This document shows positions 35,928 through 63,163 of a DNA stretch of 64,000 nucleotides, in pieces. The position numbers were made by a program, and so were the translations under genes. The stretch's first letter is position 1; each line of letters begins with the position of its first letter. This stretch comes from Pirellulaceae bacterium (GTDB lineage Bacteria; Planctomycetota; Planctomycetia; Pirellulales; Pirellulaceae), in assembly GCA_022448315.1 (NCBI GenBank), contig JAKVCA010000015.1, positions 242,837 through 306,836 on the forward strand. Reading direction: 5' to 3'. The notes beneath the pieces are model-generated. The model searched no databases. It saw only the letters and a list, made by a program, of their open reading frames with translations, and was not told where the DNA came from.

Positions 35928-36986
35928 CTACGCGGAGAAGACCGGAACATAGTTCAATGGCATTTGCAAAATGATGCACGCCATGGCCGTTCCGAATTCG
36001 GCACCAACCTGAGCATCGTTCCACGAGCCGTCACCGTTCTGCGTTTTCAATAAATGATCTCGAATTTTTGGGTACCAGCTGTCCCAGTACTGCCCTCCTG
36101 CGTGCCACATGGCTTGGACGGCATAGTATTGGCCGTAGAAGTAATAGCTGCCTCCGCTGGTCTGCGAAGATCGCTGTAGCCACTTCAGCCCTTTCTCAAT
36201 CTGTTCTCCGTCGTAAATCCCAGCGCTGTAGAGGGAGACCACACCCGCCGCGGTCAGCGGGAATGAACCCTGACTTCCTCCGGTTAACGTGTAGCGAAAA
36301 CTTCCATCAGAATTCTGGCTTCGTTTCACGTACTCAATGCATTTTTCCCGTGTCTCATCAGGGACATTGATGCCCGCATCGCGTGCGGCTCGGAGTGCCA
36401 TGATTTGACAGATGGTAATCGAAAGGTCCGCGTCACTTTTCTGAGGTTGATACCGCCATCCTCCTTGGTTGTTCTGGCAGCGGACAATCAACGCGACCGC
36501 TTTCTTCAGTTTTTCGCCGAGTTCGGGCTTTTGCGACACGCCATAGGATTCAGAAAGAAACAGGGTCGCAAAGCCATGGCCGTACATGTTGTCGTAGCCA
36601 CCGGGGACGGCGATGTAGCCGGACTCCGCAGTATTTCTGATCAAGTAATCCACGCAGGCGTCGACGTAAGATCCGTAGGGACCATCCCCAGGGACCGAAC
36701 CGCTGCACATAAAGGCCAGGCCGCCAAGGCCCGTGACGGCGGTTCCTGCGGCGTAGCCTGAGGTGCCAAAGGCTCCTGCCAACTTTCCCGACTTGACCTG
36801 CTTTCTCGTCAAAAAGGTGAGGCCGCGGTCAATGGCCGTTCGTGCTTCAGGGGTGATCAACTCGGCCGGAGACTTTTCAGATTCAGAAGCAGGTCGTTGG
36901 CCTTCAGCCAGCGTGGGCAGCGTTGCTGAACCCAAACCGGTAGCACATAAGTGCAGGAACCGTCGTCGGTGAGGGAGCGAAATCAT
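35928..36986 (-). CDS. Tat-exported prenyltransferase/squalene-oxidase-repeat protein
   Basis: The 352-residue protein begins with a twin-arginine-type leader (RRRFLHLCATGLGSATLP). The rest is an alpha/alpha-barrel of the terpenoid cyclase/prenyltransferase fold, with repeats such as RGLTFLTRKQ, NQGGWRYQPQKSDADLSITICQIMAL, SQNSDGSFRYTL and TQNGDGSWNDAQVGAEFGTAMACIILQ. The repeated GGW/DGSW elements are QW-like motifs. The DXDD catalytic motif of squalene-hopene cyclases is not evident, so cyclase activity is doubtful. Two larger membrane-anchored relatives lie at 57458-61238. The protein probably acts outside the cytoplasm; function is unknown. Confidence 0.88.
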   Translation of the reverse strand: MISLPHRRRFLHLCATGLGSATLPTLAEGQRPASESEKSPAELITPEARTAIDRGLTFLTRKQVKSGKLAGAFGTSGYAAGTAVTGLGGLAFMCSGSVPGDGPYGSYVDACVDYLIRNTAESGYIAVPGGYDNMYGHGFATLFLSESYGVSQKPELGEKLKKAVALIVRCQNNQGGWRYQPQKSDADLSITICQIMALRAARDAGINVPDETREKCIEYVKRSQNSDGSFRYTLTGGSQGSFPLTAAGVVSLYSAGIYDGEQIEKGLKWLQRSSQTSGGSYYFYGQYYAVQAMWHAGGQYWDSWYPKIRDHLLKTQNGDGSWNDAQVGAEFGTAMACIILQMPLNYVPVFSA

Positions 36987-54841: not shown

Positions 54842-56629
54842 TCAGCTCGCCGCCGAAATTCGCCAGTCCAGCAAGTGCAGTTCTACTTTTCGGAAGCCGC
54901 GAAACTCGTTTACGACCGGTCGAAATGCCACATCGATCGACCGGCCCGCTTCCGCGAGATTTTCCGCCCACTCGCCTTTGCCGAACGCCACAGCTCTCAG
55001 CTTGGCTTGACGGTGCTGGAGATTGACCGAGAGGTGTCGTTCACCCGCCCCCATGCGTTTGGGCGGTTCCACCAGTTCCACACCTCGTGTGCAAAGGATG
55101 GGACGCGGGTTGCCTTGACCGAATGGAGCAAGCCGCTCCATCTGTTCGAGGGTGGAAAGGTTCAATTCGGAGAAACTGACCTCGGAGTCAATTTCGAGTT
55201 CGGGGATCCGGTCTGATTTGGATAATGCCTGAGCCACCTCTTCGAGGAATGCTTCCCGAAATTCTTCCAGTCGATCTTCCGAGATTCGCAGTCCAGCAGC
55301 CGCTTTGTGACCTCCAAACGTCTCGAGGTATCCGGAACACCGGCTGAGCGTCTGGTAGAGATCGACGCCACTGATGGTGCGAGCGGAGCCGGTTCCTGGC
55401 TTGAGCCCTGCCGGATCCATCGCGATAAGAATGGTGGGGCGGTGATGTTTTTCCGCGAGTCGACCCGCGACGATACCGATTACGCCGGCATGCCAACTGC
55501 GATCCGCCAAGACGAATGCGGAATCATTTTCGGCGTCAAACGTGTTCTTGATCTGGTCGGAGGCGGAACGGTAAATGGAGCGATCGATGGAGTCCCTGTC
55601 GGTGTTCAGTTTGTGGATATGCGCGGCAAGTTCTCGCCCGCGTTCGGGATCCTTGGTCAGCAGAAGCTCGACACCCAGACGTGCTTGGCCAAGGCGTCCT
55701 GCTGCATTTAGTCGAGGCGCAAGTGTAAACCCGATGTCTTCGCTCGATAATGAGGACTTGGAATCGAGCTTGGTGATTTCCATTAGGTTCGAAAGTCCCA
55801 CCGGCGGTTTCTGTTTCAGGCAATGCAAGCCGTGCGCGACGAGAGTTCGGTTCTCATCCACGAGAGAAACCACGTCGGCCACGGTTCCGATTGCGGCAAG
55901 CGCCAAGGCTTGAAACAGGTATTCCCGCAGGTGAGGAGCGACCTTGGGTGAGTCGTTCTCCCCGCTCGCGAGTTGGCAAAGACGCCACGCCACTTTGAAT
56001 GCAACGCCGGCACCACATAGATCGCCGAAGGGATAATCATGCCCCGGAAGTCTCGGGTGAACCAAAGCGACGGCCTCCGGAAGCTGATCTCCCATCTGAT
56101 GATGATCGGTAATGACTAGCTTGAGTCCGAGGCGTTTTGCTGTCTGCGCGTGGTCGACACTCGCGATGCCGCAGTCGACCGTAACCACCATGCTCGCACC
56201 CTGCGCGGCGAGCTTTTCTAGAGCATCGTGTCCAAGACCGTATCCGTCATCCAGTCGATTGGGCACAAAATATTTGACATCAGCCCCAAGCTTTTCGAGG
56301 CAGCTCACCAAAATCGCGGTAGAAGTCATACCATCGGCGTCGTAGTCGCCGTACACGACGATTTTCTCTTTGGCTGAAACGGAGTCCCACAAGGCGTCGG
56401 CAGCGGCGGCACAACCGGGAAGCAACTCAGGGTCCCTGAGATTGCTCATTTTGTTTTCGAGAAAGTGGTTGCAATCTTCTGGTGTCTTCAATCCGCGTAA
56501 GGTCAGCAGTCGGGCTGCGACCGGAGAGACCCGACATTGTTCCTCAAAGTGCCGTGCGAGCCCCTCGTCAAAAATGCGCATCTGCCACTTTTTGGCGACA
56601 TGAGAGTTTGAAGAATCCGAAGTCTTCAA
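54842..56629 (-). CDS. recJ: Single-stranded-DNA-specific exonuclease RecJ
   Basis: RecJ is a 5'-3' single-strand exonuclease used in recombination, mismatch repair and replication restart. The 595-residue protein contains the DHH-superfamily motifs in order: VVYGDYDADGMTSTA, VTVDCGIAS, VITDHHQ, and VHPRLPGHDYPFGDLCGAGVAFK. The DHHA1 region shows the conserved GSARTISGVDL and GGHKAAAGLRI. An OB-type C-terminal domain follows. I chose a TTG at 56629 because GGAG lies 8 bases upstream; an in-frame TTG at 56650 overlaps that site and an ATG at 56581 would trim the N-terminus. It follows the L33 gene past a terminator. Confidence 0.94.
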   Translation of the reverse strand: MKTSDSSNSHVAKKWQMRIFDEGLARHFEEQCRVSPVAARLLTLRGLKTPEDCNHFLENKMSNLRDPELLPGCAAAADALWDSVSAKEKIVVYGDYDADGMTSTAILVSCLEKLGADVKYFVPNRLDDGYGLGHDALEKLAAQGASMVVTVDCGIASVDHAQTAKRLGLKLVITDHHQMGDQLPEAVALVHPRLPGHDYPFGDLCGAGVAFKVAWRLCQLASGENDSPKVAPHLREYLFQALALAAIGTVADVVSLVDENRTLVAHGLHCLKQKPPVGLSNLMEITKLDSKSSLSSEDIGFTLAPRLNAAGRLGQARLGVELLLTKDPERGRELAAHIHKLNTDRDSIDRSIYRSASDQIKNTFDAENDSAFVLADRSWHAGVIGIVAGRLAEKHHRPTILIAMDPAGLKPGTGSARTISGVDLYQTLSRCSGYLETFGGHKAAAGLRISEDRLEEFREAFLEEVAQALSKSDRIPELEIDSEVSFSELNLSTLEQMERLAPFGQGNPRPILCTRGVELVEPPKRMGAGERHLSVNLQHRQAKLRAVAFGKGEWAENLAEAGRSIDVAFRPVVNEFRGFRKVELHLLDWRISAAS

Positions 56630-56667
56630 GGATGTTTCTCCATATCGCAAAGGGGCAATGCGTCTGT

Positions 56668-56968: not shown

Positions 56969-57457
56969 CTCTTCGTTCTCCGACGTCCCAATCACCTGAC
57001 CGTCCGGTGATTCACCCCGACAGTCGTCTAGCTTATGTCAGACCCGCGATTGCGGATTCAGTTTTTCATTCAAATGCCAGTTTTCGCCGAAAACCGACCA
57101 GTATCTTTGCCTCGGCTTTTTTTCTAATTCAAATCCGCCCCGGATCGCGCTTTGACGGGCGAATAAAGCGTCGCTTCGCGGCCAACAAGCCATAAAGCGG
57201 ACCGGAATCGCAATAGTGTACCGAAACTCGCCCGACAGGAAAGTGGGATTTTCCGGAATATCCGCGCTCATACCAGCCGAAGCAGTTTGGCTAATTCCCG
57301 TATTTACTAGCCTAAGTGGGTGGTTTATCGTTTGGGCCGTTCAAAAGGCTTACACTTCTTCAGGAGAAATTGTTAACATAGAAATCGATGACTTATTTGG
57401 TCCCGACACCATACTCCTCTGGACGCTGGGCGTTTGTTGACGTTGGAGAAGACAGTG
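56969..57457. other. Intergenic region between rpmG and the first of two tandem terpenoid-cyclase-fold genes
   Basis: This 489-base divergent region has no supported gene. A 74-codon plus-strand frame (57216-57440) contains a hydrophobic stretch but has a GTG start without a ribosome-binding site. Confidence 0.5.
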
Positions 57458-59041
57458 ATGGCTGAAGAACTACCCTCAATGCCACAAGGTAATCCCCCTG
57501 AGGTTGAAACGGCGAGCGACAGCCCCGATGAGCGGCCGTCGAATAATGCAAGCGAACCGAAGGTCGGCCATCGGTTTGTGGTTTTCGCACTGCTGCCAAG
57601 TTGGATGGTCAGCATGTTGGTGCATGCGATTTTGATCATCCTTTTGGCTTTGATCAACTTTTCCAAGCCTGCCCGCGAGTACTTGCAAGTGATTGCGGAT
57701 CGACAGCCGGAGGTGGAGGAGCTTGACGAGTTCGAGCTTGACGAGATCATCCCGGTGGACGAGCAGGTTCTTGAGAATCAGCAACCGTTGGAGTCGGAAC
57801 CGGTTCCGGATTCATCGCTTGAAGCCAATGCGGACGTGCCGTTCACAGACAAATTCGAAGATGCGACCTTCGATATTTCTGTCGACGCGCCGACAGAAAA
57901 TTTTGCTCCGACCGATTTGTTGACGACTCCATTTGGTCAGTTGGCGTCGAACGCGACGGGCGGGCGAGCTGGAGCTCGCAGGGCCCAGATGGTGAAAGAA
58001 GCTGGTGGTAGCGAGGGTAGCGAGCGAGCCGTGCAAATGGCGCTGAAATGGATCGCGGCGCATCAGCTACCTGATGGGAGTTGGAATTTTAATCACCAAG
58101 TCGGTCCCGGGCCGCACCGGAATTCGCCTGACCCCGGCGAAGCACAGGCTGCCGTGAATGGGGCGACGGCTTTGGCATTGCTCCCCTTCCTCGGCGCTGG
58201 ACAAACCCATCTTGAAGGTAAGTACAAGCAGACCGTACTCAAGGGACTGAAGTTCCTGATCAACAACCAACGGCCAGCTGGAGGTGGTGGAACATTCAGC
58301 GAACGTGAAGGGAACATGTATTCTCATGGCCTTTGCACCATCGCCTTGACCGAAGCATACGCGATGACCAACGATCGGAATTTGATTGCTCCGGCGCAAG
58401 CCGCAATCAATTACATCGTTTATGCTCAGGATCCGGTCGGAGGTGGCTGGAGATATTCGCCTCGTCAGCCCGGTGACACTTCGGTTGTCGGGTGGCAGTT
58501 GATGGGTCTCAAAAGCGGTTTGATGGGCTATCTTGAAGTTCCACCCAACACGATTCGGGGTTCAGAAAAGTTTCTGGAGTCCGTTTCTCAAAATGGTGGC
58601 GGAAGCTACGGCTATGTCTCCCCGGGCCGATCTCCAGCGACAACGGCCGTAGGACTGCTCTGCCGCATGTATCTCGGCTGGGAAAAGGATCACCCTGGCA
58701 TCATCAAGGGGGTTGAGTTTCTGAGTAATACGGGACCCTCGAAGCCAGGTGGCAATCGAGGCAACCAGGCTGACATGTACTTCAACTATTACGCAACCCA
58801 GGTCATGCGTCACTACGGCGGGTCCGAGTGGGAAAAGTGGAATGCGGCGACTCGGGATTGGTTGGTCGATTCACAGGAAAAGGAAGGCAACCTCGCTGGA
58901 AGTTGGCACTTTCCACACACCTGGGCGAACCGAGGTGGCCGGCTCTACAATACGGCCATGGGATGCATGATCCTTGAAGTCTACTATCGCCACATGCCCA
59001 TTTACGGGAACAAGGCGACCGAGGAAGAGTTCCCACTGTAG
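57458..59041 (+). CDS. Membrane-anchored terpenoid-cyclase-fold protein with TonB-like N-terminus (first tandem copy)
   Basis: The 527-residue protein has a cytoplasmic N-tail, one transmembrane helix (about 49-68, WMVSMLVHAILIILLALI, like the anchor of TonB-type proteins), an acidic linker (about 70-185) and a C-terminal alpha/alpha-barrel (about 190-520) of the prenyltransferase/squalene-cyclase repeat fold. Repeats include ALKWIAAHQLPDGSWNFN, LNNQRP-type helices, GGGWRYSPRQPGDTSVVGWQLMGLKSGLMGYLEVP and a final GRLYNTAMGCMILEVYYRHMPIY. No DXDD cyclase acid motif is evident. GGAG lies 9 bases before the ATG at 57458. A homologous gene follows on the same strand, past a terminator. The domain probably faces the periplasm; its ligand is unknown. 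Confidence 0.88.
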   Translation: MAEELPSMPQGNPPEVETASDSPDERPSNNASEPKVGHRFVVFALLPSWMVSMLVHAILIILLALINFSKPAREYLQVIADRQPEVEELDEFELDEIIPVDEQVLENQQPLESEPVPDSSLEANADVPFTDKFEDATFDISVDAPTENFAPTDLLTTPFGQLASNATGGRAGARRAQMVKEAGGSEGSERAVQMALKWIAAHQLPDGSWNFNHQVGPGPHRNSPDPGEAQAAVNGATALALLPFLGAGQTHLEGKYKQTVLKGLKFLINNQRPAGGGGTFSEREGNMYSHGLCTIALTEAYAMTNDRNLIAPAQAAINYIVYAQDPVGGGWRYSPRQPGDTSVVGWQLMGLKSGLMGYLEVPPNTIRGSEKFLESVSQNGGGSYGYVSPGRSPATTAVGLLCRMYLGWEKDHPGIIKGVEFLSNTGPSKPGGNRGNQADMYFNYYATQVMRHYGGSEWEKWNAATRDWLVDSQEKEGNLAGSWHFPHTWANRGGRLYNTAMGCMILEVYYRHMPIYGNKATEEEFPL

Positions 59042-59103
59042 AGGTTATGTGGCCTGAGTGGCTAGACGGGCTGATCCGGCCACGGAAACATCAAGCATGA
59101 TAA

Positions 59104-59127
59104 AGGGCAGCGTTCGCTGCCCTTTTT
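59104..59127 (+). terminator. Rho-independent terminator between the two tandem genes
   Basis: A perfect 8-bp stem (59104-59111 with 59116-59123) with a 4-base loop is followed by T residues, about 60 bases after the stop of the first tandem gene. Confidence 0.88.
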
Positions 59128-59492
59128 GTTGCGCGAGAAGAGTCCAGGGAGATATTTCCGAGCATCGGCAGCAAAAAAAGGCAAATTAAAACCGTTTTGC
59201 TCAGCATCACGCGGTTTGTATTTGAAGTCGCAACCTACACTTTCAGGTTCCAGTCCCAGAAATACGTGGCATGTGTAGGCGACTCGAAGTGATGATTGAT
59301 GAGGTTTTCTCCTTCGATCAAAATGACAGACCGCCTCTTCACACCAACAAGTCTCGAACATTTCGGAGCGTGGGAACCTGCTAGTAGCATGTGCCCGTGA
59401 AACTCGCCTGTAAAAAAAGACTGTAAAACAAGAGACTGTGAAACGAGACCGCGACGTTCCACCCATCGTGTCCACTGACCCACGTGAATCTC
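59128..59492. other. Non-coding stretch upstream of the second tandem gene
   Basis: A 365-base stretch with no supported gene after the terminator at 59104-59127. The promoter of the second copy is expected here, consistent with separate transcription of the two genes. Confidence 0.5.
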
Positions 59493-61238
59493 ATGACGAC
59501 CGAGATGCAGCCAGAATTCAATACCGAGCGTGAAGGCCAACGGTCGACCGATGGCGGTACGGGATCTGATGCTGCAATGGGGCAACCACGCGATGCGGAA
59601 ATTGCTAACAAGAGTCGTAAAATATCCAGCAGCGGAGCGAATCAACTTCGTGCTGAAGAACAGAGACGTTCCGCTTCGCCAGCGAAAAAAGATGCGGCAG
59701 GGAAGACGGCGGTTCAACCAACAAGAGATCGCCCCAAACCGCCTAAGCCACCGACTCGTCAACGGGCGTCGCTTCCCTCTGTCAATTCGCAAAATGTTCC
59801 GGAAGAGCTTACCGGTCTTAATCGATATCTGGCCTATCTGCCAGGTCGACGAACGACGACCAGTTTTTCCATCAGTACGATTGTTCATGTCGTGCTATTG
59901 GTCGCGCTGATGATGATCATGGTGGCGCGGCAGAAAGAGGATGGACTTTTGACGATCGAGGCTGGAATCGATGCGGATTCATCGATGGAATTGACATTGG
60001 ATTCGACCGAGCGAGTGCCATTGCAGTCGATTCAGGCTCAGTCCAATTTTCAGGTTTCGACAGATATTGATATTCCTTTGCCACAGGCTCTGGTCATCGG
60101 GGCCCAGGCAAGTCAGGCCAGAGCGGAGCAATCCACCCTTTCAACTTCGGCGGACCTCAAGGCATTTTCGAATCTTCCGACCGGGGGTGGCATGTCAGGT
60201 CGTTCTGAGGAACGACGTCAGGACCTGGTTGCTTCTGAAGGGGGAACGGAGGCGAGCGAGCGGGCCGTTGAACTTGGCCTCGCGTGGTTGGCCGCGCATC
60301 AACGTGAGAATGGGGCTTGGTGGTTCAACTTTCATGACTCTGAGTGTCGGGGTCGCTGCCGTCATCCCGGTTCCGTGGGATCCTCGACAGCGGCAACAGG
60401 CTTGGCTCTGCTATGCTTCCTTGGTCGCGGAGAGACTCCCTTGGAGGGAAAGTATCAGGATGTGGTGCAACGTGGACTCTATTATCTACAAAACCGAATG
60501 GTCTTCACGAAGTATGGTGGAGACCTTCAAGAGGGTACGATGTACGGGCACGCGATCGCGACGCTCGCTCTGTGTGAAGCCTATGGAATGACTCAGGATG
60601 CCGCCCTTCGCCCTCTTGCTCAAAAGGCCATTGACTACATTGTCCATGCTCAACACAGCAAAGGGGGGTGGCGATACACGCCGAAACAGCCTGGTGACAC
60701 GACGGTCACTGGATGGCAAGTGATGGCCCTGCGAAGCGCTCATCTTGCTGGTCTCGAAGTCCCGACGCCTACCACGGAGTTGGCGAGACTCTATCTGGAC
60801 TCGGTTCAGACTCATGCAGGCTCCCGGTATAAGTACCTGATCACCGACGAGGACGAAACACCCGTGCCAACCGCGGTTGGCTTGTTGTGCCGGATGTATC
60901 TGGGTTGGTCGAAAGACACGACGCCACTTCGCGAAGGAGCTAGATATCTGGCAGGGCTGGGACCCTCCACCAGCGATTTGTACTTCGATTACTATGCGAC
61001 TCAGGTGCTGCATCACTTTGGCGATCCCTATTGGGAGGGCTGGAATCGACTGATGCGAGACTATCTGGTCTCCAATCAGGCAACAGCGGGTCACGAGAAG
61101 GGAAGCTGGCACTTTGCGGATGAGCATGGGGATCAGGGAGGCAGGCTCTACAGTACGGCCATGGCCGTCATGATCCTTGAGGTTTACTACCGTTATTTGC
61201 CTCTCTACGAATCTCGAGCCGTCGAGTTTCCTCTTTAG
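59493..61238 (+). CDS. Membrane-anchored terpenoid-cyclase-fold protein with TonB-like N-terminus (second tandem copy)
   Basis: The 581-residue protein parallels the copy at 57458-59041. It has a longer basic/polar N-terminal tail (about 1-120) with Pro-rich segments, one transmembrane helix (about 124-144), a linker, and a C-terminal alpha/alpha-barrel (about 245-575). Shared barrel segments include GLAWLAAHQRENGAWWFN, GGWRYTPKQPGDTTVTGWQVMALRSAHLAGLEVP, TAVGLLCRMYLGWSKD and RLYSTAMAVMILEVYYRYLPLYESRAVEFPL. The closing segments of both copies are nearly the same, which argues for duplication. The start is uncertain: ATG at 59493 or 59505, GTG at 59484, none with a good ribosome-binding site. 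Confidence 0.87.
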   Translation: MTTEMQPEFNTEREGQRSTDGGTGSDAAMGQPRDAEIANKSRKISSSGANQLRAEEQRRSASPAKKDAAGKTAVQPTRDRPKPPKPPTRQRASLPSVNSQNVPEELTGLNRYLAYLPGRRTTTSFSISTIVHVVLLVALMMIMVARQKEDGLLTIEAGIDADSSMELTLDSTERVPLQSIQAQSNFQVSTDIDIPLPQALVIGAQASQARAEQSTLSTSADLKAFSNLPTGGGMSGRSEERRQDLVASEGGTEASERAVELGLAWLAAHQRENGAWWFNFHDSECRGRCRHPGSVGSSTAATGLALLCFLGRGETPLEGKYQDVVQRGLYYLQNRMVFTKYGGDLQEGTMYGHAIATLALCEAYGMTQDAALRPLAQKAIDYIVHAQHSKGGWRYTPKQPGDTTVTGWQVMALRSAHLAGLEVPTPTTELARLYLDSVQTHAGSRYKYLITDEDETPVPTAVGLLCRMYLGWSKDTTPLREGARYLAGLGPSTSDLYFDYYATQVLHHFGDPYWEGWNRLMRDYLVSNQATAGHEKGSWHFADEHGDQGGRLYSTAMAVMILEVYYRYLPLYESRAVEFPL

Positions 61239-61420
61239 ACGATTCCCCAACCGGCACGCCTTTCGTGTTTGCCCGTATCTCTTTTTGGGTTTGCATACGT
61301 ACTCCTGGGGACTGTCTGGCGAGTGTCCTTTTTTGAGCCTTGCCGCGTGATGGCCATACCGTCAAAATCAGGACTTCGACTGGCTCGGCGATGATCTGAC
61401 TGTTTGGGAATGGCTTGGAA

Positions 61421-62188
61421 ATGACGGATGAATGGTTGGAACGTGTTTTGCCCGTGATGGATGTGCAGCATGGGCGAGTGGTCCATGCGTTGCGTGGAAA
61501 TCGTGAGCAATACAGGAGCGTTCAGCAGCTGGGTCTGCAGTCGGATGAGCTTCCATGCGTCGCCGAGTGGTACGCCACACACTATGGTTTTCGTCACTTC
61601 TACGTGGCTGATCTGGATGCGATCCGAACCTCAAAGCCTTCACACCTGGTCGGGCTGGAGACACCAAAAATCGGCGGCATCCTCTATCTGGACGCCGGGT
61701 GGTCGATCGAATCGCTTGCAAACTGTGACTTTGAAACTCGGCCGGATCATGAAGTGATTCCCGTCATCGCGACCGAGGCTCTCGCCTGTCTCGAAGAGCT
61801 TGAGGCCCTGCACGAAGTTGCACCCCCTGGCTCTGTGCTCAGTGTGGATTTGAAGCAGGGGCACCTCTGCAGTCCGCAGCTCAAATTGACGGAACCTCTG
61901 AAACTCGTGGAGTTCGCCTACCGGGTTGGTTTTAGACATTTTTTGATTCTCGATCTGGCGGATGTGGGGCAAGAGGAAGGCACTTCTTCTCTGATGCTTC
62001 TCGAGGAACTTCGCCAATCATGTCTCGAAGCCGTCTTTTGGGGCGGCGGCGGTGTCCGGGATATGCAAGATCTCGCCCATCTGTGGAAATGTGGTTACGA
62101 ACGCGTTCTCGTAGCCACCGCTTTTTACCGCGGTTCAATTACCCGTCGGCAGTTGCGAGAGGCCCAAGTGCCTTATTCTGACTGCTAG
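61421..62188 (+). CDS. HisA/HisF-like TIM-barrel protein
   Basis: The 255-residue protein is related to HisA/HisF, the phosphate-binding barrels of histidine synthesis, but belongs to the divergent branch known as the HisA/HisF-related family. Visible elements are LPVMDVQHGRVVHALRGNREQY near the N-terminus (catalytic Asp in the usual position), VADLDAIRTSKP, YLDAGW, LSVDLKQGHL, LILDLADVGQEEG and the phosphate-loop VFWGGGGVRD. Members occur in methanogens, methylotrophs and Planctomycetes that use tetrahydromethanopterin C1 transfer, and a role in that cofactor's synthesis has been suggested; I treat this as an inference. No his gene is adjacent. ATG 61421 is chosen over a TTG at 61415. Confidence 0.85.
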   Translation: MTDEWLERVLPVMDVQHGRVVHALRGNREQYRSVQQLGLQSDELPCVAEWYATHYGFRHFYVADLDAIRTSKPSHLVGLETPKIGGILYLDAGWSIESLANCDFETRPDHEVIPVIATEALACLEELEALHEVAPPGSVLSVDLKQGHLCSPQLKLTEPLKLVEFAYRVGFRHFLILDLADVGQEEGTSSLMLLEELRQSCLEAVFWGGGGVRDMQDLAHLWKCGYERVLVATAFYRGSITRRQLREAQVPYSDC

Positions 62189-62584: not shown

Positions 62585-63163
62585 TTGAAGATTTCAAGCA
62601 TGGGTTGTATCGCTTTAGGCCTGTTGGTTGCTCTAGGATCCTCGGTCAACGGCCAGGAGGCTCAGGGGCAGTCGGGAATCGTCGCGGTTCTTGACGTTGC
62701 GAAGGTGTTCAAAGAACACGCGCAATTCAACAAGAGCATGGAAACCATCAAGAGCGACATCGCCAAATTTGAAGAAGAGTTCCGCGGAAAACGGGAGTCC
62801 CTGCAGAATCAAATTCGAGCTCTACAGAATCTTGTGGGACAGCCCGAATTCAAAACCGAAGAGGCGGCACTTGCCCGGAAAGAGGCAGATCTCCAGATCG
62901 AAGCGAACCAAAAGCGGGCGGATATCCTGAAGCAGGAAGCCGAGATTTACTATCAAACTTATAACCAGGTGGTTCAGACCGTCGCCAAACTGAGTGGCAC
63001 CTACGGAATCAGCTTGGTCATCCGTTACGATAGCGGTCCGATCGACCAAACCGATCGTCCTTCGGTCATCAAAGGTGTCAACCGGAACGTTGTGTTTCAG
63101 CGTGATCTTGACCTGACCTCTCTGGTCTTGGCAGAGCTCAACGGAACCACCGCCGGCAACTAG
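62585..63163 (+). CDS. OmpH/Skp-like periplasmic chaperone
   Basis: The 192-residue protein has a signal peptide (about residues 1-23, ending VNGQE). A Skp/OmpH-like fold follows: a short beta segment (GIVAVLDVAKVFKEHAQFNKSMETIKSDI) then a long helical hairpin (about 50-130, Glu/Lys/Gln-rich) and a C-terminal segment YGISLVIRYD. Skp-type chaperones hold unfolded outer-membrane proteins in the periplasm. The start is TTG at 62585, with a perfect AAGGAGG Shine-Dalgarno 7 bases upstream, so the rare start is well supported. A terminator follows at 63191-63220, which separates it from the small lipoprotein gene. Confidence 0.9.
   Translation: MKISSMGCIALGLLVALGSSVNGQEAQGQSGIVAVLDVAKVFKEHAQFNKSMETIKSDIAKFEEEFRGKRESLQNQIRALQNLVGQPEFKTEEAALARKEADLQIEANQKRADILKQEAEIYYQTYNQVVQTVAKLSGTYGISLVIRYDSGPIDQTDRPSVIKGVNRNVVFQRDLDLTSLVLAELNGTTAGN

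Follow-up and report, generated by a model that had tools for sequence, protein, structure and literature searches.

Organization of the locus

The stretch of DNA analyzed here, referred to below as the window, comprises 64,000 nucleotides from a Pirellulaceae bacterium of the phylum Planctomycetota (assembly GCA_022448315.1, contig JAKVCA010000015.1, positions 242,837 to 306,836 of the forward strand). It contains two adjacent genes, SQC1 and SQC2, whose products carry an alpha/alpha toroid joined by a long linker to a transmembrane (TM) helix, and a third gene, SQC3, for a soluble relative. The features of these genes, in window positions, are as follows.

57458..59041, + strand: SQC1, TonB-like anchored toroid protein, 527 residues from the ATG at 57458, alternative TTG start at 57434 (open reading frame (ORF), Pfam, model, relatives)
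57599..57661, + strand: SQC1 TM helix, residues 48-68, with Ser52-x3-His56 and Leu at H+7, i.e. seven residues after the His (motif scan, model, alignment)
57611-57613 and 57623-57625, + strand: codons of SQC1 Ser52 and His56, respectively
57662..57970, + strand: acidic linker of SQC1, for the most part modelled as disordered (model, linker alignment)
57971..58990, + strand: SQC1 alpha/alpha toroid, residues 172-511 (model, structure comparison, alignment)
59102..59127, + strand: terminator-like hairpin and T run 3' of SQC1, core palindrome 59105-59122 (folding against shuffles)
59484..61238, + strand: SQC2, second TonB-like anchored toroid protein, 584 residues, GTG start (ORF, Pfam, alignment)
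59865..59933, + strand: SQC2 TM helix, with Ser131-x3-His135 and Leu at H+7 (motif scan, alignment)
60240..61196, + strand: SQC2 toroid, residues 253-571 (identity to the SQC1 toroid, with no model of its own)
35928..36986, - strand: SQC3, soluble toroid relative of Tat type with no anchor helix predicted, 352 residues (ORF, Pfam, model)

All three reading frames are open at these coordinates. The Pfam profile SQHop_cyclase_C (cut-off 26.1 bits) gives 26.5, 22.9 and 38.8 bits for SQC1, SQC2 and SQC3, which places SQC2 below the cut-off. Toroid identity amounts to 48% between SQC1 and SQC2 (333 residues) and to 32% between SQC1 and SQC3 (284 residues). The N-terminal HRRRFLHL of SQC3 is presumably a Tat-type start.

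The toroid family was found by profile search in 105 of the 118 Planctomycetota genomes sampled. With SQC1 as the query, matches were obtained in all 25 genomes of the order, with 4-18 in each. The genome of this bacterium (G000) holds ten family members at E <1e-12, including SQC1-SQC3 on contig C34, while an eleventh match is doubtful (E 0.16, three stops). A single-protein search for related loci, which reaches only close relatives, returned 28 loci, all of them planctomycete, Kuenenia and Thermogutta included. The sole match of a plasmid search beyond the phylum was again a planctomycete, Planctomyces sp. SH-PL62.

An earlier reading of the sequence alone (the original prediction) had described two adjacent anchor/linker/barrel genes and a third, Tat-exported relative. 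Both descriptions agree with the present data, since the reading frames lie where expected, the SQC1 model shows a helix, a linker and a toroid, and SQC3 combines the HRRRFLHL start with a toroid model. The three genes are real, but the count of three was incomplete in view of the ten members in the genome. The near-identity claimed for the ends of the barrels holds for SQC1 and SQC2, which share the C-terminal segment LEVYYR-H/Y-x-P-x-Y ... EFPL, but is reduced to resemblance for SQC3.

Two side observations concern these proteins. An acidic-aromatic tail, frequently (D/E)(D/E)FPL, closes many of the SQC1 relatives and occupies window positions 59021-59038 at the end of SQC1; this tail, modelled with low confidence, could be a docking peptide. 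In several toroids, a C-x3-C pair follows the first W-x-F motif (SQC2 residues 288-292, ECRGRC; not in SQC1), and a disulphide or a metal site is possible at this position.

Fold of the toroid domain

AlphaFold2 models were built for SQC1 on a 29-row alignment (A1) and for SQC3 on a second alignment (A2). The SQC1 model contains a TM helix at residues 48-68, a linker in which residues 73-144 have a predicted local distance difference test score (pLDDT) below 50, and six helical hairpins at residues 172-511, mostly with pLDDT above 90. The toroid of the SQC3 model is like that of SQC1 at lower confidence (mean pLDDT 75). The barrels of the original prediction are thus obtained as toroids for both proteins.

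In the comparison of the SQC1 model with solved structures (VIA), the best match was the single-domain cyclase 8pak_B (Z 26.6, 288 residues, 2.9 Å). Squalene-hopene cyclase (SHC) 2sqc_A followed with Z 26.5 (292 residues, 3.3 Å, 17% identity), drimenyl diphosphate synthase with Z 24.8 and MstE with Z 22.6; the SQC3 model matched 2sqc with Z 26.8. Sugar-active toroids were also found, including cellobiose 2-epimerase (Z 22.6), AprG (22.4) and GH76 (~21). As modelled, the toroid of SQC1 and SQC3 is a class II terpene-cyclase fold, and the shared fold alone says nothing on function.

The alignment of 29 toroids reveals strong conservation of individual residues. T237, Y288, D340, Y441, Y444 and T499 occur in 29/29 sequences, W346 and R495 in 28 and H290 in 25, while column 342 is occupied by Ser (24/29) or Thr (5/29). 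The near-invariant columns sit at or near the predicted starts of the inner helices of the SQC1 model, forming a pocket ring as read from alignment columns and predicted helix limits. This arrangement suggests that the toroid pocket binds something, with catalysis possibly retained (T237, Y288, D340, W346, Y441, Y444, R495, T499).

The position of these residues also speaks for a different explanation, in which the toroid is a catalytic domain (a glycan lyase, a hydrolase or an epimerase-like enzyme), the helix is a mere tether, and the members in motor operons are energized or co-regulated enzymes. Sugar-active toroids score nearly as high as the cyclases, and SQC1 has a weak match to Pec_lyase (PF09492; 22.1 bits, cut-off 22). 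However, the best stretch of this match spans only 47 residues, the NCBIfam pectate lyase model TIGR02474 reaches 26.7 bits against a cut-off of 189.8, and no known catalytic set was identified. A tethered enzyme is considered unlikely, also in view of the anchor motif described below.

Absence of the cyclase acid

The DXDD motif occurs in 0/72 family toroids, compared with 12/12 true SHCs from Planctomycetota. The 72 toroids were kept from 91 family ORFs after duplicates and incomplete toroid ends had been dropped, and the 12 SHCs are the best-scoring loci among the 39 genomes with an SHC match. The NCBIfam cyclase model TIGR01507 (cut-off 431.1) gives 26.3, 24.7 and 31.2 bits for SQC1, SQC2 and SQC3.

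Alignment with true cyclases does not lead to a single register. In the local HMMER register, D340-T341-S342 of the family lies opposite the DADS stretch of 6ij1, which is assumed to be its acid region, and SQC3, aligned by HMMER with the DVDD stretch of drimenyl diphosphate synthase, has a Ser opposite Asp303. In a register based on counting hairpins, Y288-x-H290 lies opposite the catalytic acid position. In an hhalign comparison of the toroid profile with true SHCs (97.8%), the toroid is aligned to the repeats after DXDD, while HMMER aligns it to several repeats. The register is ambiguous, yet, as far as these alignments indicate, the catalytic Asp is missing in either one. Consequently, the argument for the loss of the acid rests on the absence of DXDD anywhere in the toroid.

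The distribution of true SHCs leads in the same direction. They were detected in 39 of the 118 Planctomycetota genomes, namely in 7/13 toroid-less and 32/105 toroid-bearing ones, which leaves 73/105 toroid-bearing genomes without an SHC. None was found in G000, an assembly that is 97% complete. Because this distribution is unlike that of the toroids, the toroids are not the hopanoid enzyme of Planctomycetota.

These data bear on the possibility that the SQC proteins are genuine class II terpene cyclases that act on an envelope isoprenoid with another acid in place of DXDD. The nearest solved folds (SHC, single-domain cyclases and drimenyl diphosphate synthase) and the invariant Asp D340 at the start of an inner helix are in its favor. 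Against it stand the contrast in DXDD between toroids and SHCs, the missing catalytic Asp in both registers, the SHC distribution, including the lack of a detected SHC in G000, and the 4-18 family copies per genome, an odd number for a single biosynthetic step. Terpene cyclization is therefore very improbable. The original prediction had reported that no DXDD motif is seen and had argued against classical cyclization. Both statements are supported by the 72 toroids, by cyclase scores far below the cut-offs and by the distribution of true SHCs; its suggestion to align the barrels with true cyclases at the catalytic acid yields no Asp in either register, although the register itself stays ambiguous.

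Anchor helix and linker

PMC12215075 describes a motif common to the TM helices of TonB and TolA, Ser-x3-His-x6-Leu-x3-Ser (SHLS). Its Ser and His touch ExbB/TolQ; in Ton, conservation is lower for the Leu and the final Ser. In the toroid family, S-x3-H lies within the TM helix of 56/64 complete, de-duplicated proteins with a predicted helix, SQC1 and SQC2 included. These 64 are the 72 kept toroid proteins minus four that are open at the 5' end and four without a predicted helix (SQC3, L015, L017, L036). Among the 56 proteins with S-x3-H, Leu at H+7 is found in 44. At the same hydropathy threshold, the control contains S-x3-H in 3/409 TM segments (3/224 non-family proteins from the same loci), and at a stricter threshold the values are 55/64 for the family and 2/283 for the control. 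A plain tether has no need of a motif that is frequent in the family and rare in the control, which counts against the tethered enzyme.

The linker provides further, softer evidence. The D-box of E. coli TonB comprises residues 45-51, i.e. 25-31 residues after His20 (PMC12215075). In 73 aligned linkers of the toroid family, hydrophobicity peaks 21-24 residues after the His, near the E. coli TonB D-box position. SQC1 has a short hydrophobic stretch of this kind, YLQVIAD, 19-25 residues after the His, and some linkers closely resemble the E. coli D-box, such as that of L037 with MKVTTID. Judged by sequence, these D-box-like stretches are soft evidence for TonB likeness. In some motor-linked relatives, one or two extra helices are predicted ahead of the motif helix.

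Linkage to ExbB/ExbD motors

Contig C1 of G000 holds two family members in a pair of convergent clusters, both with the order TPR gene, ExbB, ExbD, toroid; the TPR domain was confirmed for one of the two clusters. The linkage was counted in the 25 genomes of the order among the best 150 of 220 toroid matches and the best 150 of 219 ExbD matches, sorted by E-value, so that the counts are lower bounds. Among these listed matches, 44 of the 150 ExbD genes have a same-strand toroid gene within 6 kb, against ~0.95 expected, and opposite-strand pairs within 6 kb number one. ExbD is upstream of the toroid in 45/45 listed pairs, and the linkage occurs in at least 24/25 genomes.

Twenty motor loci were read. 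Since they were picked as motor-linked from the match lists, their description is not that of a random sample: a toroid and ExbD are present in 20 and ExbB in 19 (none in L100), all on the same strand, and the toroid anchors carry S-x3-H in 17 loci and C-x3-H, S-x3-N and G-x3-N in one each. The "TonB-like anchor" of the original prediction was well chosen, as the Ser-x3-His motor-binding motif is present and relatives are encoded in ExbB-ExbD operons.

The linkage also bears on the idea that the toroids are adhesion or structural modules like the thioester (TED) domains of alpha-2-macroglobulins and that their proximity to motor genes is incidental. The fold is common to TED-bearing proteins such as human C5, and the toroid profile matches a thioester-containing protein with E 1.4e-4. 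However, no thioester motif is apparent among the conserved columns, and 44 motor linkages where about one is expected are hardly incidental, so that this idea is highly improbable. No TED or protein prenyltransferase rows are among the 50 structure matches listed, which is no test of those families.

All 25 genomes of the order encode ExbD, with 2-17 copies each, and TonB_C was found in 14/25. Of the ten ExbD matches of G000, two stand alone, each in a toroid operon, and the others form four doublets. One doublet adjoins a protein with S-x3-H and a vWA domain (contig C83). The S-x3-H anchor is thus found in this genome with three heads: TonB_C, vWA and toroid. The TonB of G000 (contig C48, the sole TonB_C match) has S-x3-H and no ExbD on its contig. 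Consequently, the use of a motor encoded elsewhere is not unusual in this genome.

Two of these motor clusters were noted separately. The S-x3-H protein of contig C83 (L087:4242-10740) has 339 residues and a VWA_2 score of 28.9 bits and is accompanied by an ExbB-like gene, two ExbD genes and a TPR protein; it is an apparent vWA force transducer resembling a published class. On contig C52 (L089:3355-5037), a 560-residue protein with HEAT_2 at 23.5 bits and Prenyltrans at 22.0 bits, both below cut-off, directly precedes an ExbB/ExbD cluster and may be a soluble toroid associated with a different motor.

Proposed function

Computation shows the domain architecture, the Ser-x3-His motif, the toroid fold, the lack of DXDD and, for other family branches, the operon linkage to ExbB/ExbD. 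The reading favored for them, with a probability of about 0.65, is that SQC1 and SQC2 are TonB/TolA-like, motor-coupled periplasmic transducers of the inner membrane with an acid-less cyclase-fold toroid as the head. Each protein would have a cytoplasmic N-terminus, a single TM helix, a disordered linker and a periplasmic globular head; the periplasmic location of the toroid is suggested by the TonB-like features and by the Tat signal of SQC3. If the proteins work as TonB and TolA do, the anchor would dock on a TolQ/TolR-like motor, made up of an ExbB pentamer and an ExbD dimer, that holds the helix through the His. Proton flow would drive the motor, and the linker would pass the force on to the toroid. 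The toroid, as a binding head that is possibly still catalytic, would grip a periplasmic, outer-membrane or cell-wall partner and pull, move or release it. SQC1 and SQC2 would rely on a motor encoded elsewhere in the genome, and SQC3 would be the freely diffusing, Tat-exported member of the family. The original prediction had proposed envelope ligand binding or remodelling, which is compatible with this mechanism but generic, as the evidence points to proton-motive-force coupling.

It also seems reasonably probable that the family is a phylum-wide Planctomycetota class of proton-motive-force-driven transducers, with several members per genome, in which the toroid takes the place of the TonB/TolA end domain. 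In this view, SQC1 and SQC2 would be ancient members, adjacent to each other in several lineages, that share a motor encoded elsewhere. In a FastTree analysis of 87 toroids (built without L029, L036, L044 and L045, with branch support not inspected and an arbitrary root on the Tat copies), SQC1 and SQC2 belong to two adjacent groups, and the 25 toroids labelled as motor-linked to two others. L069, which is not labelled as motor-linked and has ExbD 2.2 kb upstream, falls nearer SQC1/SQC2.

Several observations weigh against the transducer reading. There are no motor genes beside SQC1/SQC2 in the window, so the link to a motor rests on paralogues and on the anchor motif. The final Ser of SHLS is present in only 6 of the 56 S-x3-H proteins, and 8 of the 64 family proteins lack S-x3-H. 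Among these eight, L033-L035 have A-x3-H in its place though they lie behind ExbB-type genes, L016 has only a signal-like helix, L044 and L045 are remote proteins, and L032 and L070 may be mis-started ORFs. For C37, C52 and C56, three of the six G000 motor clusters, the 16 kb read contains no protein with S-x3-H, which means that the motor needs no such partner nearby. The relatives were read largely from metagenome-assembled genomes and similar assemblies, and no binding partner, outer-membrane target, phenotype or experiment was found for the toroid family.

The expected contact partner in ExbB belongs to the same group of observations. In E. coli, Ser34 and Trp38 of ExbB (Ser-x3-Trp) hold TonB (PMC12215075). 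In 21 aligned toroid-linked ExbBs, the presumed first TM helix (TM1) keeps the Ser and has no Trp at +4, the register to E. coli being assumed, as the alignment did not include E. coli ExbB. S-x3-W does occur in 4/21 of them, but in the N-terminal hydrophobic stretch. Trp at +4 of the TM1 Ser is likewise missing from the ExbBs of the vWA operon on C83 and of C37, C52 and C56, although one of these five control proteins (C52a) is probably no ExbB. Since the ExbB of the vWA operon also lacks Ser-x3-Trp, the comparison does not discriminate; the contact known from E. coli is apparently not simply copied in toroid-linked ExbBs.

If the transducer reading is correct, a family labelled "squalene oxidase repeat" concerns energy transfer across the planctomycete envelope and not terpenes, and an enzyme-associated fold has been reused as a mechanical head. 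The toroid would be a further head type for ExbB/ExbD motors beside TonB, TolA and vWA, which would help to explain the 2-17 ExbD genes per genome, often without a detectable TonB_C. The outer-membrane machinery of planctomycetes is poorly known. As a caution for metagenome studies, genes of this kind would then not be counted as hopanoid or terpene genes.

Gene order and neighbouring genes

SQC1 and SQC2 are separated by 442 bases that contain the terminator-like hairpin. The 56-nt stretch folds with -22.1 kcal/mol (z -2.45), and 3/200 shuffles are equally stable; a consensus terminator scan, however, does not list the hairpin at 59102-59127 among its elements. The terminator assumed in the original prediction is therefore supported by folding and not by the scan. 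The separate regulation derived from it is plausible in this genome, but the relatives show other arrangements. Among the 11 SQC1 relatives L018-L028, SQC2 is directly downstream in three, with an overlap in L026 and distances of 36 bases in L027 and 77 bases in L028 (spacings taken from mechanical ORF starts). In L018, which is 76% identical to SQC1, SQC2 is nearby on the other strand, behind a HisA-like gene. No SQC2 was found within the flanks read of L020-L024, and L019 and L025 end too soon. Tandem toroid pairs also occur in the genomes G018, G019 and G022. In view of these varied arrangements, the 442-base gap with a hairpin is one of several. The neighbours of the pair in the window are as follows.

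54842..56650, - strand: recJ, divergent neighbour of SQC1 (Pfam)
61415..62188, + strand: HisA/HisF-like gene downstream of SQC1/SQC2 (His_biosynth, 65.8 bits)
62585..63163, + strand: OmpH/Skp-like periplasmic chaperone gene, following the HisA-like gene (Pfam)

Similar neighbours recur among the relatives. In L020-L024 and L026, the SQC1 relative adjoins a recJ-cluster gene. A HisA-like gene is found near a family gene in L018, L023, L024 and L028, and an OmpH/Skp-like gene in L018, L026 and L027. A general linkage to OmpH was considered and rejected, as the 4/42 above-cut-off OmpH matches within 6 kb of 29 toroid sites (two of them in G000) are too few.

Other family members have different surroundings. 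Elsewhere on contig C34 of G000 (L012:2271-13768, ~123-135 kb), an anchored toroid gene stands beside MoxR, DUF58 and a divergent TgpA-type transglutaminase and precedes the gene of a YfhO-like membrane protein and another OmpH/Skp-like gene. Toroids that lack a TonB-like anchor are encoded in L015:8549-16060 and L016:9871-19000 behind very large proteins (1323 and 1918 residues) and vWA-like genes, the VWA match in L015 being below cut-off. This setting is a second recurrent context of anchor-less members.

Comparison with known systems

Like TonB and TolA, the toroid proteins have an N-terminal TM helix that bears Ser-x3-His, a long linker with a hydrophobic stretch near the D-box position and a globular end domain, and toroid relatives are encoded directly behind ExbB-ExbD. 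They differ in the toroid that forms the end domain and in the location of the SQC1/SQC2 pair away from motor genes. Pfam reports no TonB_C (PF03544) for SQC1, SQC2 or SQC3 at E-values up to 10, a range in which the HMMER filters drop most matches above ~0.1. Because this end domain is absent, SQC1 and SQC2 are not members of the TonB family, though they probably work like TonB/TolA.

The vWA transducers are a second point of comparison. Williams-Jones et al. 2025 (PMC12204202) describe transducers of Planctomycetes and other phyla that are laid out like TolA/TonB, with the SHLS motif and a vWA domain as the head. Their genes in the PVC group often lie behind TPR-tolQ-tolR genes, and according to the authors further transducer systems are still to be discovered (PMC12204202). 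The TolA/TonB-like layout, the foreign end domain and the presence of TPR and motor genes are as in the toroid operons. However, the head is a vWA domain and not a toroid, and tolR-like genes are paired, in contrast to the single ExbD in each toroid operon of G000. Pfam finds no VWA domain in SQC1, SQC2 or SQC3.

With SHC and other class II cyclases, the SQC proteins share the toroid fold and the Q-x-x-x-G-x-W repeats, but they have one toroid domain, no DXDD, and a membrane anchor or Tat export. The database label on the Planctomyces sp. SH-PL62 plasmid match, "Prenyltransferase/squalene oxidase repeat-containing protein", describes the fold and is silent on the anchor, the motor linkage and the lost acid. 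In the literature, the words "squalene" and "toroid" are absent from the main text of PMC12204202 and of PMC12505986 (MotAB relatives), and ExbB, ExbD, TolQ and TolA from that of PMC3422733 (planctomycete outer membranes). No description of toroid-headed transducers was found in the open-licence literature, judged by titles and abstract starts. Toroid-headed transducers therefore appear to be new beside the known TonB, TolA and vWA heads, with a mode of action that is probably TonB/TolA-like.

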